Assembly: GCA_938030895.1 (NCBI GenBank)
Contig: CALHIV010000014.1
Coordinates: forward strand, 1 to 46,676
Direction: 5' to 3'
DNA length: 46,676 nucleotides
Origin: an uncultured Nitrososphaerales archaeon
GTDB taxonomy: Archaea > Thermoproteota > Nitrososphaeria > Nitrososphaerales > Nitrosocaldaceae
Part shown: piece by piece, positions 34,154-44,135 of the stretch
Layout: each line of letters starts with the position of its first letter
Numbering within the stretch: position 1 is the stretch's first letter
Position numbers and translations under genes: made by a program
The notes under the pieces: generated by a model
The model's input: only the letters and a program-made list of their open reading frames with translations
What the model was told of the DNA's origin: nothing
The model's database searches: none

Positions 34154-34171
34154 ATTTTGGTTATAAGCATA

Positions 34172-35433
34172 ATGAAGATACCGTTTAGTAAACTAATAAT
34201 AATAACGGTGATAACGGTTGTAGTTGCTACAATGCTACTTATAGGCTATATTAGCACTCATGTATTTGGACAGTTTGGTGAACTGCGTCTTCCCAAGCCT
34301 GAAGAGATAACAGAGTATCACTGCTCTGGTAACCCTACACCATGTATAGATCACGGGGATACAGCATTCATGTATACAGCAGCACTAGTCATGATAATGA
34401 CCCCTGGAGGTGTTGGCTTCCTATACGGTGGCTTGACAAGGAGGAAGAACGCTGCTACGGTTATACTTCAGGCATTCCTAGTCTATGCTATAGTAAGCAT
34501 ACAATGGGTTATATGGGGTTACTCGCTTACATTTGGACCTGATGCTACTGGACATGGCTTCATAGGCTCATTTGATTGGGTAGGGCTCAACAACGTGCTA
34601 CACAATGCACCAGCAGATGTATATGCTCCAAGCATACCCCATATAGCATTTGTTATGTTCCAGTTGATGTTTGCAGCAATAACACCAGCGCTGGCAGTTG
34701 CAGGGTATGCAGATAGGGTAAAGATGAGCGTATTCATGATACATGTAGTGCTATGGAGTACATTCGTATATGACTTCGTTGGACACTGGAACTGGTCTTG
34801 GGAAGCCAAGGTACATCACTTGGCTGGTTGGCAAGTCTAGGCGCACTTTGCTGGAGGAACAGTTATACACATAACATCTGGCTTTGCTGGCCTAGCATCT
34901 GCAATGTATATTGGTAGGAGGATAGGCTATGGGAAGGTCCCATTCACTCCCCATTCAATACCATTCGTACTCCTTGGAGCAACACTTCTCTGGTTCGGTT
35001 GGTTTGGATTCAACCCTGGTAGTGCTGGGGCAGCTGGTGCACTTGAGAGCCAAGCATTCCAGAATACTAACGTTGCAACAGCAGTTGCAGCACTATGGTG
35101 GATGTTCCTGAGCTGGGCTCATACAGGGAAGACCAGTGCTGTTGGTGCTGCAAGTGGTGCTATAACAGGTTTAGTTGCTATAACACCAGCCTCAGGCTTT
35201 GTAGGTACATGGGCATCTATAATATAGGCTTTGCTGCAGGGACTGTATGCTTCTACTGCTTGCTTATAAAGAATAGAGGTAGGATAGATGATGCTCTGGA
35301 TACCTGGCCTATACACGGTATGGGCGGTGTTGTTGGTGCACTTCTAACAGGTACATTTGCTGAGAAGCGTATAAACCCACTAGGCGATGATGGTATATTC
35401 TTTGGCAACCCATGTATTATGCAGTATCCTTGA
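34172..35433 (+). pseudogene. amt: Amt/AmtB ammonium transporter, decayed
   Basis: A membrane channel for ammonium uptake, now broken. The first part is good Amt sequence: an export-type N-terminus, DTAFMYTAALVMIMTPGGVG, FLYGGLTRRKNAATV and SIPHIAFVMFQLMFAAITPA. Near 34805-34850 two compensating shifts and an in-frame TAG spoil the sequence: the conserved [10 protein letters not shown] is only readable in another frame. Then [15 protein letters not shown] and [20 protein letters not shown] continue up to a stop at 35227. A third shift leads to [14 protein letters not shown] and PIHGMGGVVGALLTGTF. The frame ends with GNPCIMQYP, about 80-100 residues short, so the last helices are lost. An intact copy may exist elsewhere. 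Confidence 0.85.
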
Positions 35434-38040: not shown

Positions 38041-38674
38041 AGCCTAACTAGATACCCATTCTCCACCATCTATCCTGTAGAATATCTTTGCTACTCCACA
38101 ACCATCATCAGTAGCAGTTATGGTTATAACACCACTATCTGTTAGTGTAGCACCATCCTCTATGTTTATACTTACGCTTGGCGGAGTATTATCTAGTGCT
38201 GCTGTTATACTCTTAACACTACCAAATCTATTGCAAGAGAGCCCTGTAGAATACTGTGTATGAACCATCTTGGAGCGTTGTTGGGAGATTGAATGTCACA
38301 CTATTACCTGTAGAGGTTATCCATGCTGTATCCGATGGACTGCTACCAGCAGGCACTATTTGGTATTGTACTTTAAGTGAGTTGTATGGTGTACTCACAG
38401 TTATTGGTGTTGCTGAGGATATGAACATTGTACCATCCCTAACCACTGTAGGGTTACCTAACTCTATGGAGACGGCATCAAGGGAGATCCTTATAATTAT
38501 AAACCTCATAAACCTTACGCTGCCCCTTGCACTAAGCATATATGTAGCATAGAACTCAACAGTATGTTCTCCCTCGCTTACGCCTCCAGCAGGTATGTTG
38601 AGGCTATTATTGCTTGACATAGTATTATGATTGTTATTGCTGTATTGAAGAATAAAGTATGAAAAGTAACACAC
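38041..38674 (-). pseudogene. Fragment of a surface protein with OmpL47/Ig-like repeats
   Basis: Two frames join. The upstream one (38228-38674) reads NIPAGGVSEGEHTVEFYATY, then beta-rich text with SSATPITVSTPYNSLKVQYQ and DGSYTVFYRAL. The downstream one (38044-38268) reads LDNTPPSVSINIEDGATLTD and GVITITATDDGCGVAKIFYR. The motif TATDDGxGVAKIxYRIDGGEW is typical of OmpL47-type Ig-like repeats found in large archaeal and bacterial surface proteins. The frame stops right after GGEWVSS, in the middle of a domain, and a shift lies near 38270. Thus it is a truncated, frameshifted remnant without signal peptide or anchor. Confidence 0.65.
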
Positions 38675-38724: not shown

Positions 38725-39663
38725 ATGACTGAACAAGTGGGGTATAAACAAGATAGACAGGATCAAAGTAATGATAAACACTCTAGTCCACATATAATAA
38801 GGATTAATAGGCATGAGAGGAAGAGGCTTGTATTTGCGCTACCCCTGCTTGCAGTAGGGGGTATAGCATTACTCTTCTCCTACATATATAGTTCGTTGAT
38901 CCTTACGTTCATAGGCCTTGGGCTAACATTCTGGGGCTCAGTGTTATACTACATAACCTCATCACGCTATTATCCTGCTGATCTATTTAGGGTAGTGGTA
39001 GAGGTATATAGTGAGAGCATGAGTACTATACTATCAAGGCTTGGCTACAGCATCAAGAACACAGCAACAGTACTCTTCTACCCAAGGCAGCTCAGGCTTG
39101 GAGGCTTGACGCAAGGCTACATCTTCGTATACAAGGATGGCATAGGACCAAAAGAGAACACTATTCAACTTCAATACCTTGAGGGGTGGGATGGAGATAG
39201 CAGTAGCAAGGGTATGGATATACATGGCAGAGGTGCAGCAATCCCGATATCATCTACACCTCCACCAGATGCAGATAAGCACTCAGGTGTGCTTATAAAA
39301 GCGCCAGCGCAAGGCTTGATAGACCTCTTTGAGAGTAGGCTCGATACCAACTTTGCATTAATGAGTATAGATGAGTTGAGCATGAGCATAGAGAGGCTAT
39401 TCTTGGAGGAGTTTATGCTTGCAGATAGTGTTGAGATAAGCATGGATGATGATAATAATTATATAGTGAGGGCTACTCTGAGGGGCAAGGACGCTGCAAG
39501 TATATGCTCTAGTATGCATTCTATAAGTACAGCGCTATGCCCTATCTGCTCAAGTATAGCATTGGCGATAAGCAAGAGCACAGGCAAGGCAGTCATGGTT
39601 AAGGAGAGCAGTGTTGGTAAGAGGAGGGTTGATACCGTGTATTCTTTGCTAGAGATGGTGTAG
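38725..39663 (+). CDS. Membrane protein, first gene of a five-gene surface/membrane cluster
   Basis: A 312-residue protein. After a hydrophilic N-terminus (about 35 residues) come two close transmembrane helices (LVFALPLLAVGGIALLFSYI and LILTFIGLGLTFWGSVLYYI). A large C-terminal domain of strands and helices follows, containing FYPRQLRLGGLTQGYIFVYK and APAQGLIDLFESRLDTN. The domain has no known catalytic motif. Cysteines in SICSSMHSISTALCPICSS are near the end. It is followed closely by four more membrane-associated genes on the same strand with gaps of 0-16 bases or overlaps, so they form an operon. I do not recognise the family. Confidence 0.65.
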   Translation: MTEQVGYKQDRQDQSNDKHSSPHIIRINRHERKRLVFALPLLAVGGIALLFSYIYSSLILTFIGLGLTFWGSVLYYITSSRYYPADLFRVVVEVYSESMSTILSRLGYSIKNTATVLFYPRQLRLGGLTQGYIFVYKDGIGPKENTIQLQYLEGWDGDSSSKGMDIHGRGAAIPISSTPPPDADKHSGVLIKAPAQGLIDLFESRLDTNFALMSIDELSMSIERLFLEEFMLADSVEISMDDDNNYIVRATLRGKDAASICSSMHSISTALCPICSSIALAISKSTGKAVMVKESSVGKRRVDTVYSLLEMV

Positions 39664-39679
39664 AGGTGCTTATAGAAGG

Positions 39680-39889
39680 ATGTACTCATTTGCATTCAAT
39701 CTCTGGGATATAGGTTTATGGCTTGCTATATCCTCAATAATACTGCTAGTAACATCTGAACTGCTTGCACCATATTATGGTAGGATAAAGATGGTGATAG
39801 ATGTGAAGAGGCTTAGGATAATTGCAATAGGCTCTGGTCTAGCATTCCTTGTTATAGCAGCAGTAAGGATATCTACAGTAATAGGGTGA
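39680..39889 (+). CDS. Small two-helix membrane protein
   Basis: A 69-residue protein with two transmembrane helices (near 10-30 and 46-66) separated by a short basic/Tyr loop (YYGRIKMVIDVKRLR). Sixteen bases separate it from the previous stop, and eight bases later the next gene starts. It probably acts as a subunit or assembly partner of the membrane cluster. No family is recognised. Confidence 0.6.
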   Translation: MYSFAFNLWDIGLWLAISSIILLVTSELLAPYYGRIKMVIDVKRLRIIAIGSGLAFLVIAAVRISTVIG

Positions 39890-39896
39890 TGTAGAG

Positions 39897-40439
39897 ATGG
39901 TTAGCGTAGAAAGAACTATTAGGAATAAGAGGATATATTTCAATTACTGCTGCTTAACATTGCCTACTCTACTGTTACTTGCCATTCAGATCCAGCAGCA
40001 ACAACACCATCTAACATATGAAATAATTCCTACTGTGTATGCAATAGAAGTGGATGATTTGGTACATCAAGCACTAGTTAGTATAAAGGAGGCAGATTCT
40101 GTTGGCGTAGATACCTCACACCTTGTCACTAAACTTAACGATGCGCTCAACATTATAAGAGATGTAGAGCGTGATGATGGCTCAGAATCATGCACTGACA
40201 GGGATGAGTGTATTGCAACTGCTGCTGGTATGCTCAACTCAATAGTGGATGAGGCTAAAAGACTGCATAGACAGAAGGTGAAGGAGGATGCAGATAGGTT
40301 CTATATTAACATGCTTGTTTATGCGCCAATGGGCGCTCTTATATCATCCATAACCTTAGTTCTATTATACACTAACCTGAAGGGTTACATGCATACAAAG
40401 TTGATGGAGATGGATGTGAAGGAGGTTAAGGAGGAGTGA
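39897..40439 (+). CDS. Exported helical protein with C-terminal anchor
   Basis: A 180-residue protein with an N-terminal signal-like hydrophobic segment (LTLPTLLLLAIQIQQQQ). An extracytoplasmic helical domain follows, rich in acidic residues (VDDLVHQALVSIKEADSVGV, then SESCTDRDECIATAAGMLN with two cysteines). A membrane helix near 143-163 (NMLVYAPMGALISSITLVLL) leads to a short Lys/Glu cytoplasmic tail. The domain resembles helical bundle parts of DUF1616-linked proteins. The stop TGA at 40437-40439 directly abuts the next start, indicating translational coupling. Confidence 0.65.
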   Translation: MVSVERTIRNKRIYFNYCCLTLPTLLLLAIQIQQQQHHLTYEIIPTVYAIEVDDLVHQALVSIKEADSVGVDTSHLVTKLNDALNIIRDVERDDGSESCTDRDECIATAAGMLNSIVDEAKRLHRQKVKEDADRFYINMLVYAPMGALISSITLVLLYTNLKGYMHTKLMEMDVKEVKEE

Positions 40440-41114
40440 GTGTGGATGGGTATAGACATGCAGGATAAGTCTGGTCTAGAGTCATACATACTAAGACCTC
40501 TCAGATCCAGAGAGTTCCTTATCATCCTTGCCGTACTTGTAGCTATAAGCATGAGCGTAGCATATGTTGTATCCGTACCTAGAGATTACGAGAGGTTCAT
40601 GAGCCTTAGCACCCTAGGTAAAGGGATGATGGCATCCGATTATTATCCTTCAAATACACCAGATATAAGCAGCGGGGATAAGATCCTCTGGCATATTCAG
40701 GTATACAACAGGATGGGAAGTGCAGAGTATATAGCCATAAGGGTTAAGTTGCTCAATGCTGAGATGCCTATACCAGATGATAATACACATGATCCAAGTC
40801 CATTACAGCACATATATGAGGTTAGGCAGGTAGTAGCAAATGATTCAACCATAACCATACCATTAGAGTGGAGCATAGCAACTGTAGCAAGGGAGAGTGG
40901 TGAGGATGGGAGTATGTACGTTACTGTGAAGGAGTTGGTAATAAACGGGGAGAGGGTAAGCGCTGATGTGAAGAGCAAAGATGGTAAGAACTTTAGACTC
41001 ATAATGGAGTTATGGAGGTACAACCCAGCTAGCAAGGTATTCGAGTTCTCATGGCTCGATAGAATGAATGAGAGGAGGAGTGCGTGGAATCAGATATGGT
41101 TCAACGTAAAGTAG
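40440..41114 (+). CDS. DUF1616 C-terminal-like exported domain protein
   Basis: A 224-residue protein with one N-terminal membrane helix (FLIILAVLVAISMSVAYVVS) and a beta-rich outside domain. The domain order YERFMSLSTLGKGMMASDYY, then GDKILWHIQVYNRMGSAEYI and TITIPLEWSI, matches the C-terminal extracytoplasmic part of DUF1616 proteins, an Ig-like fold. The start is a GTG immediately after the previous stop; the ATG two codons later is an alternative. In typical DUF1616 proteins this domain is fused to the helices encoded by the next gene, so here the family is split and inverted in order. Confidence 0.7.
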   Translation: MWMGIDMQDKSGLESYILRPLRSREFLIILAVLVAISMSVAYVVSVPRDYERFMSLSTLGKGMMASDYYPSNTPDISSGDKILWHIQVYNRMGSAEYIAIRVKLLNAEMPIPDDNTHDPSPLQHIYEVRQVVANDSTITIPLEWSIATVARESGEDGSMYVTVKELVINGERVSADVKSKDGKNFRLIMELWRYNPASKVFEFSWLDRMNERRSAWNQIWFNVK

Positions 41115-41806
41115 AGGAAAAGGTAAAGGTAAGCAATGATAAGTATAAGAGCAAGAGTATAGAGCAGATACTCAAGATAGAGGATAGGGATGAGATGCTT
41201 GAACAGCTAGTGCTATATGCTGTTAGGAGTAACTGTAGCAAGGTCAAGGATATTGTGAATATGCTAATGGAGAGTGATATAGCAAAGTTAATGAGTTCAT
41301 CCAAAAATAGTATAAATATCGATGATATTCTGGATGCTGTTAAGAGGCTTGCGCGCAAGAAGACTATAATACTCTACAACTCAAGCATAGTATCATTCAA
41401 GGATTACATAAAGAACATGTATCTTAGTATGACGCTCTGGATAACTGCTATAGTAACTGCTGTAACCATCTTGACCATATACATACTCCCAGATACGATA
41501 CCATGGAGTATTGTAAGGATAGTGGTAGGGGGAGCATTCGTACTCTTCATCCCTGGATATACACTTGTACAACTGCTCTTCCCTAGCAGAGAGATGGATA
41601 TTATAGAAAGGATTGCCTTGAGTATAGGCCTGAGTCTTGCAGTTGTTCCCTTAACAGGGTTCCTGTTGAACTACAGTCCATGGGGTATAATGCTAGATCC
41701 AATAGTCATATCAATCAGTATTTTAAGCATAGCACTAGCTACAACGGGTGTATATAGAATGTATGTAATGAATGTTAAGATGGTGAAGGGGGAGGATGAA
41801 GATTAA
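41084..41806 (+). CDS. DUF1616 N-terminal membrane domain protein
   Basis: A 240-residue protein whose start overlaps the previous gene by 31 bases (the ATG at 41096 would shorten the overlap). The N-terminal 120 residues are soluble and helical (IEQILKIEDRDEMLEQLVLY and VKDIVNMLMESDIAKLM, a winged-helix-like pattern). Four transmembrane helices follow. Helix 2 has IVVGGAFVLFIPGYTLVQLL followed by FPSREMDIIERIALSIGLSL, the hallmark of the DUF1616 family. Members are linked to surface or polysaccharide gene clusters in archaea, but their biochemical role is unknown. It is the last gene of the five-gene operon. Confidence 0.78.
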   Translation: MESDMVQRKVEEKVKVSNDKYKSKSIEQILKIEDRDEMLEQLVLYAVRSNCSKVKDIVNMLMESDIAKLMSSSKNSINIDDILDAVKRLARKKTIILYNSSIVSFKDYIKNMYLSMTLWITAIVTAVTILTIYILPDTIPWSIVRIVVGGAFVLFIPGYTLVQLLFPSREMDIIERIALSIGLSLAVVPLTGFLLNYSPWGIMLDPIVISISILSIALATTGVYRMYVMNVKMVKGEDED

Positions 41807-42114: not shown

Positions 42115-43331
42115 ATCCTTTATATCACCCATGGTAAATATACCTGCCTCATCCTCAAGAAACTCACAACAGTGCTCTTGTCTAAAGAGTCTTCCTTTAA
42201 CCTTCTTCTGCACTTCTGTGTAATGTTCATCAAACAGTAGGTTTAGGGCAACTGTGTAAGGTAGTGTAACTGCATGGTAACCATTCTTCCCTTCTAGAGC
42301 ATCTCTATATATCTAATAGAATGCCCCTACTCTTCTAGGCTTAGACTATGTATGGATTGGTCTTGGCTATGTAACGCTCAATAGCCTCTCTTACCCTATT
42401 ATGGTTATAAACTCCCTGTTAACCTCATCTATGCTTAGCACTCTAACGAGTGCTATGTTCCTCACTCTACATGACGGTGCTGGCATACTATACACAATAA
42501 CCCCAATAACCTCTCCTTGAAGCGTTGCGATGAACACATGCCTTATACCGTATGGTCTATTACCTCTGTAATGGTACTCCTCGAGCCTATACCAATCATC
42601 TATACAACCCTTCTCTATCCTTACATGCTTTAGGAGTGAACACATGCGTTGAGTACTCATCGCCCCCTGAACTATGATTACTCTTACTGGTATACTCTAT
42701 CTTATACTTGATCCATAACCCTTACTTATAAGTACATCTGGCATGAGATCATCAAGGTCATCATGTGCAGTAGCAACCAGTAATGTCTTCCTACCTGCTC
42801 TTATAACCTTCTGGAGCATATACGCTACAACCTTTGCAGTATCTCTATCCAGCATAGAAGAGAACTCATCGAATACAAGGACGCCTTTCTCATTAGATGA
42901 GTGGGCAAGGGCTTTAGCTATCCTATATCTATACTTCTGACCATCGCTCAACTCCCTACGTCAGAGAATAGATATGCATCGTTGAGTCCAACTCTACTGA
43001 GTAGTTGAATTGCTTCATCAGTGCTTGAGCCTATGCTATCTACAAGTACTTCATCATCATCTATCTTAACCTCATCTGCAAGTAATATATCGCCGAGTAC
43101 GCCTTTCTGTCTTGCAGTACATTCTGTTAGTCTTTTAAGAAGTATCGATTTACCAGAACCGGACTCTCCGATTATATACACAATATCTCCAGGTTTTATA
43201 TCAATATCCACATTATTCAATACCTTGAATACCCTTGTATCTAGAGCAATTCCAAAGGCCTGGGCTACATCTATTGCTATTTCTGTAACAGGGTATCCCT
43301 GCTCAAATGCAACATCTAGGGAGAATAACAT
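42110..43331 (-). pseudogene. ABC-ATPase fused to GNAT acetyltransferase (COG2401 type), decayed
   Basis: Four frame pieces on the minus strand restore one gene. The ATPase has VDIDIKPGDIVYIIGESGSG with the Walker A lysine at 43331-42948. After a shift, LSDGQKYRYRIAKALAHS (signature), VLVFDEFSSMLDRDTAK (Walker B) and VATAHDDLDDL follow at 42951-42697. Then comes an acetyltransferase-like domain, HVFIATLQGEVIGVIVYSMP, at 42660-42391, and after more stops a C-terminal tail, NGYHAVTLPYTVALNLLFDE and FRQEHCCEFLEDEAG, ending near 42110. The order ATPase then acetyltransferase matches COG2401 proteins. At least three frameshifts or stops disable it. The original role is unknown; these fusions are often found with mobile DNA. 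Confidence 0.7.
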
Positions 43332-43429
43332 AGTATAGTAATAAGCATGGTAGCAAATAATTTAATAATATATAAAAATTAAATTCCCTTCTGTGATTTA
43401 TTTATATTGAGACGGTATAGGCATAGTTA

Positions 43430-43920
43430 TCATTCTTCTTCCTGCTTCTTCCTTTTGTATAACGCTATGGCATAAGGGAGTATATCTATCTCTTCCCCTG
43501 CCTTGATATCCCTATCAACCTTTATGTACATGCTCGGTAAATACTCTATACTCCTATCTCTTACTATCTTACACACTTTGCTGATATACCAAATATCTTC
43601 GCTATATGCCTGTAAGAGTATGAGAGCGAGAGCAAATGTATGCATACCTGTTGTACCTCTCTTATGTATGACCTCATATCCAGGTCCTTCTTACTCTTGA
43701 TCTCATCAAGTACTGAGCGTATAGCCTTGATGCTCTCATTCATCTCTGCTATACATGACCTAACCTCATCTTCTTGCTCAAGTTGCTTAATCAGTGCAGG
43801 ATTGTTCCTTAACTTACCTGTAAGGTCCTTGACCATAGACAATATATCCTCTATAGTTATCTGGGCAACAGCCATAGTCCAGAATACGCCCTTGTTACCA
43901 CCACTGCCACCATCCCTCAT
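43430..43920 (-). pseudogene. Helix-turn-helix protein split by a frameshift
   Basis: Two frames make one protein of about 160 residues. The first (43920-43564) is helical with TIEDILSMVKDLTGKLRNNP, then IREVQQVCIHLLSLSYSYRH leading into the helix-turn-helix HIAKIFGISAKC. The second (43645-43430) continues with KIVRDRSIEYLPSMYIKV and ends KRKKQEEE. The lesion is a single-base shift within the recognition helix. The start overlaps the stop of the upstream gene by four bases (ATGA), so the two were translationally coupled. Likely a DNA-binding protein of a plasmid or integrated element. Confidence 0.6.
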
Positions 43921-44135
43921 ACCTCTTCTCCGTCAACATAAGCAACTTCCCCTATACTATCTCTGTTATGTCCTTCTATGAGATCATAGCTATCGTTGTT
44001 AATCCTATTGCTGTTCTTTGATCTCAGATACTCCTCAGGAAGCGCCTTGAGTATAACCACTTTAGAGATCTCTTCCCCTAAATCTCTAAGCAACTTGTCA
44101 ACTATCTTATCTATAGGGTAGCCCATCGGCTCCAA
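43917..44135 (-). CDS. Small hypothetical protein coupled to the broken HTH gene
   Basis: A 72-residue frame from a TTG at 44135 (MEPMGYPIDKIVDKLLRDLG and KVVILKALPEEYL), followed by a low-complexity Asn/Ser linker (SKNSNRINNDSYD). The open frame extends upstream to RLKASDIAEIAEE without ATG, so the true start may be lost or non-canonical. The pattern of two helices followed by VILKALPEEY resembles the N-terminal helix-turn-helix of thaumarchaeal mobile-element proteins. Its stop overlaps the next start. It could be intact or a stub. Confidence 0.4.
   Translation of the reverse strand: MEPMGYPIDKIVDKLLRDLGEEISKVVILKALPEEYLRSKNSNRINNDSYDLIEGHNRDSIGEVAYVDGEEV

Follow-up and report, generated by a model that had tools for sequence, protein, structure and literature searches.

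The window analysed here is a 46,676-nucleotide contig (CALHIV010000014.1, assembly GCA_938030895.1) from a Candidatus Nitrosocaldus genome, whose named relatives are Ca. Nitrosocaldus tengchongensis, Ca. Nitrosocaldus schleperae, and Ca. Nitrosocaldus sp.; the Nitrosocaldus host is a heat-loving, ammonia-oxidising archaeon. On its forward strand, at 38725-41806, lies an operon of five open reading frames (ORFs), P1 to P5 in order, the last two of which represent the two parts of the archaeal protein family DUF1616. All five are intact, and are described below with lengths in amino acids (aa), alongside their transmembrane (TM) and immunoglobulin (Ig)-like elements. Compared genomes carry G-numbers and the loci read carry L-numbers throughout.

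38725..39663, + strand: P1, 312 aa; two TM helices and a predicted cytosolic C-terminal V4R/Bet3/H-NOX-like domain
39680..39889, + strand: P2, 69 aa; P2A-type protein with two TM helices, a type found beside exosortases elsewhere
39897..40439, + strand: P3, 180 aa; N-terminal signal or anchor, extracellular helical part, and one C-terminal TM helix
40440..41114, + strand: P4, 224 aa; C-part of DUF1616, with one TM helix and an extracellular Ig-like beta-sandwich
41084..41806, + strand: P5, 240 aa; N-terminal membrane part of DUF1616, with four TM helices

The genes are separated by 16 bases (P1-P2), 7 bases (P2-P3), and 0 bases (P3-P4), and P4 and P5 overlap by 31 bases; the start of P4 may lie a few codons downstream of the called one, and that of P5 may be a downstream Met at about 41096. 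This layout, together with the TM content, agrees with the initial annotation of five tightly packed membrane-protein genes, and the first three could indeed not be assigned to a family, as no Pfam or NCBIfam family matched P1, P2, or P3. Ratios of nonsynonymous to synonymous substitution rates (dN/dS) against four congeners were 0.18-0.26 for P1, 0.11-0.22 for P2, 0.29-0.34 for P3, 0.11-0.13 for P4, and 0.14-0.20 for P5. This overall range of 0.11-0.34 indicates that all five genes are functional and under purifying selection and, combined with the synteny reported below, rules out chance ORFs.

DUF1616 (arCOG02884) has been listed as a top-priority uncharacterised archaeal gene, present in 293 of 524 genomes (PMC6393860, Table 1). 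P5 matches the corresponding profile (PF07760) over positions 3-118 with an E-value of 2.3e-29 and 103 bits (Pfam cut-off 31.6), and P4 matches positions 157-236 with an E-value of 1.6e-3 and 18.1 bits, which is under the Pfam cut-off when taken alone. We consider this weak P4 match genuine because orthologues at the same place match the C-terminal half of DUF1616 far better, down to 1e-20 and passing the cut-off, and because the AlphaFold2 (AF2) model of P4 consists of a TM helix and a beta-sandwich (predicted local distance difference test score, pLDDT, 92.8). The PDB folds matching this model are Ig-like or arrestin sandwiches, with no specific relative among them; weak matches of P4 to Wzz and Wzy were below cut-off and unsupported by the model, and were set aside. 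The profile matches therefore bear out a DUF1616 split over overlapping genes, with the Ig-like part upstream of the membrane part. This arrangement had been viewed as remarkable in itself, which the wider survey does not uphold. Across 397 Thermoproteota genomes, DUF1616 was present in 144, and among the matches listed one frame spans the whole profile only in G251, G269, and G346, the others listed being N-parts or C-parts. When 59 loci were read gene by gene, the C-part came first in 33 of 34 same-strand pairs, and the genes overlapped in 28. The split is thus old and ordinary in Thermoproteota, and a recent split is ruled out by its occurrence throughout the phylum. The sole pair with the N-part first, in G008 (L043:8513-10083), heads a glycan locus, and its C-part has an extra front region of ~180 aa.

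The order P1-P2-P3-P4-P5 is shared by four further Nitrosocaldus genomes, by the sister genus (G006), and by an order-level relative from one further family (G007); in a fifth congener (G003), the contig ends within the locus. Close relatives keep the genes together rather than scattered, every complete Nitrosocaldus locus has all five ORFs intact, and no close strain carries a fused DUF1616. In the rest of the order, DUF1616 has a patchy distribution, being present in 16 of 61 relatives. Across the phylum, P1 was found in 95 of the 397 genomes, P3-P4-P5 and P1-P2 recur as blocks, P3 and P4 are adjacent in 27 loci, and profile comparison links P3 to the gene preceding P4 (probability 97%). This close synteny and the phylum-wide blocks support the earlier view of a single conserved membrane module. 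The P1 of G007 (L042:3027-4820) carries, fused at its N-terminus, an additional stretch of ~330 aa that matched no family.

The C-terminal domain of P1 (residues about 190-311) was modelled by AF2 with a pLDDT of about 90 and the element order aabbaabb, and nearly all of its best PDB folds share one fold, found in YslB, TRAPPC3/Bet3, TPC6, H-NOX, and the PoxR sensor. Judging from this model, P1 resembles a ligand-binding domain of the V4R/Bet3 kind with a membrane anchor, and its topology suggests that the domain is cytosolic; no sequence-family match supporting V4R, Bet3, or H-NOX was obtained for the domain. Proteins of this type bind hydrophobic, aromatic, or haem ligands, and the PDB entry of Naegleria TRAPPC3 carries a title that describes covalent binding to palmitate. 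A match of the middle part of P1 to pseudoazurin (E 0.0025) was judged to be due to chance, since the stretch is modelled with little confidence and the fold matches listed include no cupredoxin. In P5, 16 residues are invariant across 20 homologues, and its N-domain appears by eye to be cytosolic and winged-helix-like.

Relatives of the module are linked to exosortases. With large exosortases defined as PF09721-family matches whose open frame reaches 500 aa or more, 27 of 39 in the 397 genomes have P1 or DUF1616 within 12 kb, compared to 3 of 60 shorter ones (Fisher p 7e-12). The G006 operon itself contains an exosortase-family gene (PF09721, 4e-24; L041 9532-11541), which starts within the P5 stop. 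The order exosortase-P1-P2A, or a close variant, was found in L139, L140, L152, L155-L157, L159, and L161-L165, and exosortase-P1-P2B, with a second type of P2, in L148 and L149 (G036, G051). Longer arrangements include exosortase-P1-P2A-secreted protein(s)-P5-flippase (G330, G322) and, in other genomes with no nearby match to the DUF1616 profile, flippase-secreted protein-GT2-secreted protein-exosortase-P1-P2A, where GT2 denotes a family 2 glycosyltransferase. In exosortase loci, the gene that follows P1 is recognised by the P2A profile (1e-9 to 1e-23), and the P2 of the window is of this type. DUF1616, MoxR, and a 550-aa exosortase-like gene occur together in five Thermoproteota loci (L167-L171), the exosortase-like gene of L171 having been recognised by Pfam search.

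The large exosortases of Nitrosocaldaceae and of G036 and G051 display Ser at the catalytic Cys site (PSSG or ASSG versus CSG), whereas homologues in other classes retain CSG. These Ser-type exosortases are located at L041:9532-11541, L147:8779-10950, L150:14089-15906, L151:15848-18097, L057:1432-2400, L148:3564-5711, and L149:11945-14137; the NxxR motif was not found in those of G036 and G051.

Proteins with candidate sorting signals are also encoded in these loci. VPE-type signals, i.e., VPE followed by a hydrophobic stretch and then basic residues at the C-terminus, were detected in 9 of 295 ORFs from 17 exosortase loci, versus 1 of 577 in control loci, and all 9 lie at most 2.2 kb from the exosortase, including two between P2A and P5 in L139; a tenth candidate (L140 7797-8531) fell just under the hydrophobicity cut. 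Closer to the window, the complete Nitrosocaldus genome G001 encodes 14 PEF-CTERM-like proteins, whereas shuffling the tails gives an expectation of 0.04. A PEF-CTERM-like protein of 637 aa, resembling pyrroloquinoline quinone (PQQ) dehydrogenases, precedes the operon by 0.9 kb in G001 (L036), with a counterpart in G005 (L040), and a 161-aa PEF-CTERM-like protein is found directly downstream of the operon in G002 (L037). Around module loci more broadly, genes for GT2, flippases, and epimerases recur, and in G007 and G008 the locus sits in a glycan cluster. Separately, secreted proteins with a VPE(L/I)xT-type signal occur inside exosortase-P1-P2A-DUF1616 operons (L139:7688-9217, L140:7797-8531, L152:9446-10111). 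No NCBIfam model matched the L139 7688 and L152 proteins, and their sequences possibly define an unnamed CTERM class.

On balance, we lean towards a reading in which P1-P5 form one membrane complex, an accessory platform that supports exosortase/archaeosortase-type processing of surface proteins that are secreted and glycosylated. Outside the membrane, P3 and the Ig-like P4 would hold or guide an exported protein, and P5, with its four TM helices and invariant polar residues, would make up the membrane core together with P2. The cytosolic V4R/Bet3-like pocket of P1 could bind a hydrophobic ligand, e.g., a lipid or a dolichol-type carrier, which the complex would then present to an exosortase-type enzyme. 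As a presumed last step, an exosortase-family enzyme would cut the C-terminal tag and transfer the protein onto an anchor, lipid or otherwise, for which the tag cutting and protein anchoring associated with Haloferax ArtA provide a model (PMC7157517). Within the window's genome, the partner would presumably be an archaeosortase; this genome encodes a thaumarchaeosortase (TIGR04297, 406.9 bits, cut-off 250; L072).

A number of observations weigh against this assignment. The window contains neither an exosortase-family enzyme in the operon nor any sorting-signal protein that we could find, and a large exosortase was searched for and not found in its genome, even though the same exosortase query family is present in 4 of 5 congeners. 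The site that holds the exosortase in G001, beside methylthioadenosine phosphorylase, is empty in the window's genome, with syntenic genes on one side, and in G001 itself the exosortase is about 40 kb from the module. Given the missing enzyme and the empty site, the exosortase link for the window is one of P1, P2, and DUF1616 homology rather than of local anatomy. At the scale of the phylum, an exosortase lies within 5 kb of just 14 of 94 P1 matches, many P1 or DUF1616 loci have no close exosortase, and the main partner of the module is MoxR/DUF58/DUF4350, not an exosortase. The loci were moreover chosen by DUF1616 or exosortase matches, which biases presence counts, and adjacency and order less so. 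Finally, the fold match of P1 reaches a probability of up to 0.98 but has an E-value of 0.03 and a TM-score of about 0.25 over the whole query.

The MoxR association underlies the main alternative. Makarova, Galperin, and Koonin (2015) predicted a putative novel secretion system from gene neighbourhoods (PMC5898192, section 3.2), the parts of which are given there as arCOG01314 (DUF4350), MoxR, vWA, arCOG02884 and arCOG03442 (both pfam07760), and 2-3 TM proteins, with both key families described as absent from most Thaumarchaeota. A DUF1616 system had thus already been predicted, and the suggestion in the initial annotation that the system was undescribed does not stand. Several families carry the order P3-P4-P5-P1-P2B-large Ig protein-DUF4350-MoxR-DUF58 (L124, L126, L138, L141), and profile comparison connects the window to such loci with probabilities of 97% for P1, 97% for P3, 99% for P4, and 100% for P5. 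By contrast, no profile link was obtained between the window's P2A and P2B (0.2%), which have only position and size in common, and treating them as a single family was rejected. From these profile relationships we regard the window operon as a reduced member of the 2015 system. The module might then serve MoxR-driven secretion or envelope remodelling, its closeness to exosortases reflecting shared surface-gene neighbourhoods, an alternative that is backed by the conserved gene order and by the published prediction and yet strikes us as unlikely. The version it would require in Nitrosocaldus, with another ATPase or a passive process, is similarly doubtful. Neither DUF4350 nor DUF58 was found in the window's genome or its family (other vWA families were not searched), the best MoxR-like match in this genome is 45.9 bits and lies outside the locus, whereas the MoxR in the operon of G046 reaches 185 bits, and a search for a complete MoxR system elsewhere in the genome found none. 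Furthermore, P1-P2 is directly associated with an exosortase, without MoxR, in many loci, and sorting-signal proteins are located inside those exosortase operons.

An accessory role in N-glycosylation or surface-polysaccharide export, with a flippase or glycosyltransferase as partner and no part in protein sorting, is improbable. It would account for the recurrent GT2, flippase, and epimerase neighbours and for the glycan clusters of G007 and G008, and in Haloferax the DUF1616 protein HVO_2173 itself carries N-glycans at four sites (PMC8241124). Being glycosylated does not, however, show a role in glycosylation, the glycan genes form the more variable part of operons that also hold exosortases and sorting-signal proteins, and the glycan genes of the window are not adjacent to the operon. 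We give very little credence to a relic left without function by the loss of MoxR, DUF58, DUF4350, and the large exosortase, a scenario that would fit the absence of these partners from the assembly and the several broken genes nearby, but is disfavoured by the intact Nitrosocaldus ORFs and their low dN/dS.

Disrupted genes were noted at three places in the window. An ammonium transporter gene (PF00909) at 34157-35433 (+ strand) is divided into three ORFs in different frames, representing either a pseudogene or assembly indels. At 42391-44135 (- strand), two genes that are intact in G001 (L036 11184-13629) are fragmented, one ABC-ATPase-like of 505 aa and one of 285 aa. Directly upstream of P1, a divergent Ig-like ORF at 38044-38674 (- strand) is frameshifted and forms a single frame in G001 (244 aa) and G005 (214 aa); it looks like a truncated surface protein.

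Beyond the platform reading itself, we tentatively raise the possibility that DUF1616, P1, and P2 serve the large archaeal exosortases in general as a membrane partner that supplies a lipid or glycan acceptor via the Bet3-like carrier domain, in which case the Nitrosocaldaceae partner would be the Cys-to-Ser exosortase and the pan-archaeal DUF1616 family would belong to C-terminal surface-protein anchoring. The DUF1616 system has so far been predicted from gene context alone, and its link to exosortases, sorting signals, and glycan genes provides a concrete hypothesis, testable in Haloferax volcanii, where ArtA and a DUF1616 gene are both present. The likely fold of P1 adds to what is known of this system, and the window indicates that the DUF1616 module can persist without MoxR, vWA, and DUF4350. 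In the literature searched, archaeal DUF1616, DUF4350, or MoxR loci were nowhere joined with an archaeosortase, and the exosortase and sorting-signal context of DUF1616 was not described before.

Compared with known systems, the operon shares with that of Makarova et al. the combination of DUF1616 membrane and Ig-like proteins with 2-3 TM proteins in one neighbourhood, and loci of that type with DUF4350, MoxR, DUF58, and an Ig protein contain relatives of all five window genes, that of P2 by position and size. What sets the window's genome apart is that DUF4350, DUF58, and a close MoxR are all missing and that its P1-P2A pair is of the exosortase-linked type; the link to exosortases and sorting signals is absent from the published description in section 3.2. 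Relatives of the module share operons with an exosortase, tripartite signals, a flippase, and GT2, as in exosortase/archaeosortase systems (PF09721; ArtA, PMC7157517; PEP-CTERM/XrtA), and their content resembles bacterial exosortase-exopolysaccharide loci. The window operon differs in having no exosortase, and DUF1616, P1, and P2 are not known components of any described exosortase system. The C-terminal domain of P1 resembles V4R, TRAPPC3 (Bet3), and H-NOX proteins in its predicted fold and helix-strand order, and departs from them in having two TM helices and no sequence-family match. Fused DUF1616 proteins (PF07760; HVO_2173, arCOG02884), for their part, are built from the same pair of parts, an N-part with four TM helices and a C-part with a TM helix and an Ig-like domain, which in the window are encoded by two overlapping genes in reversed order.

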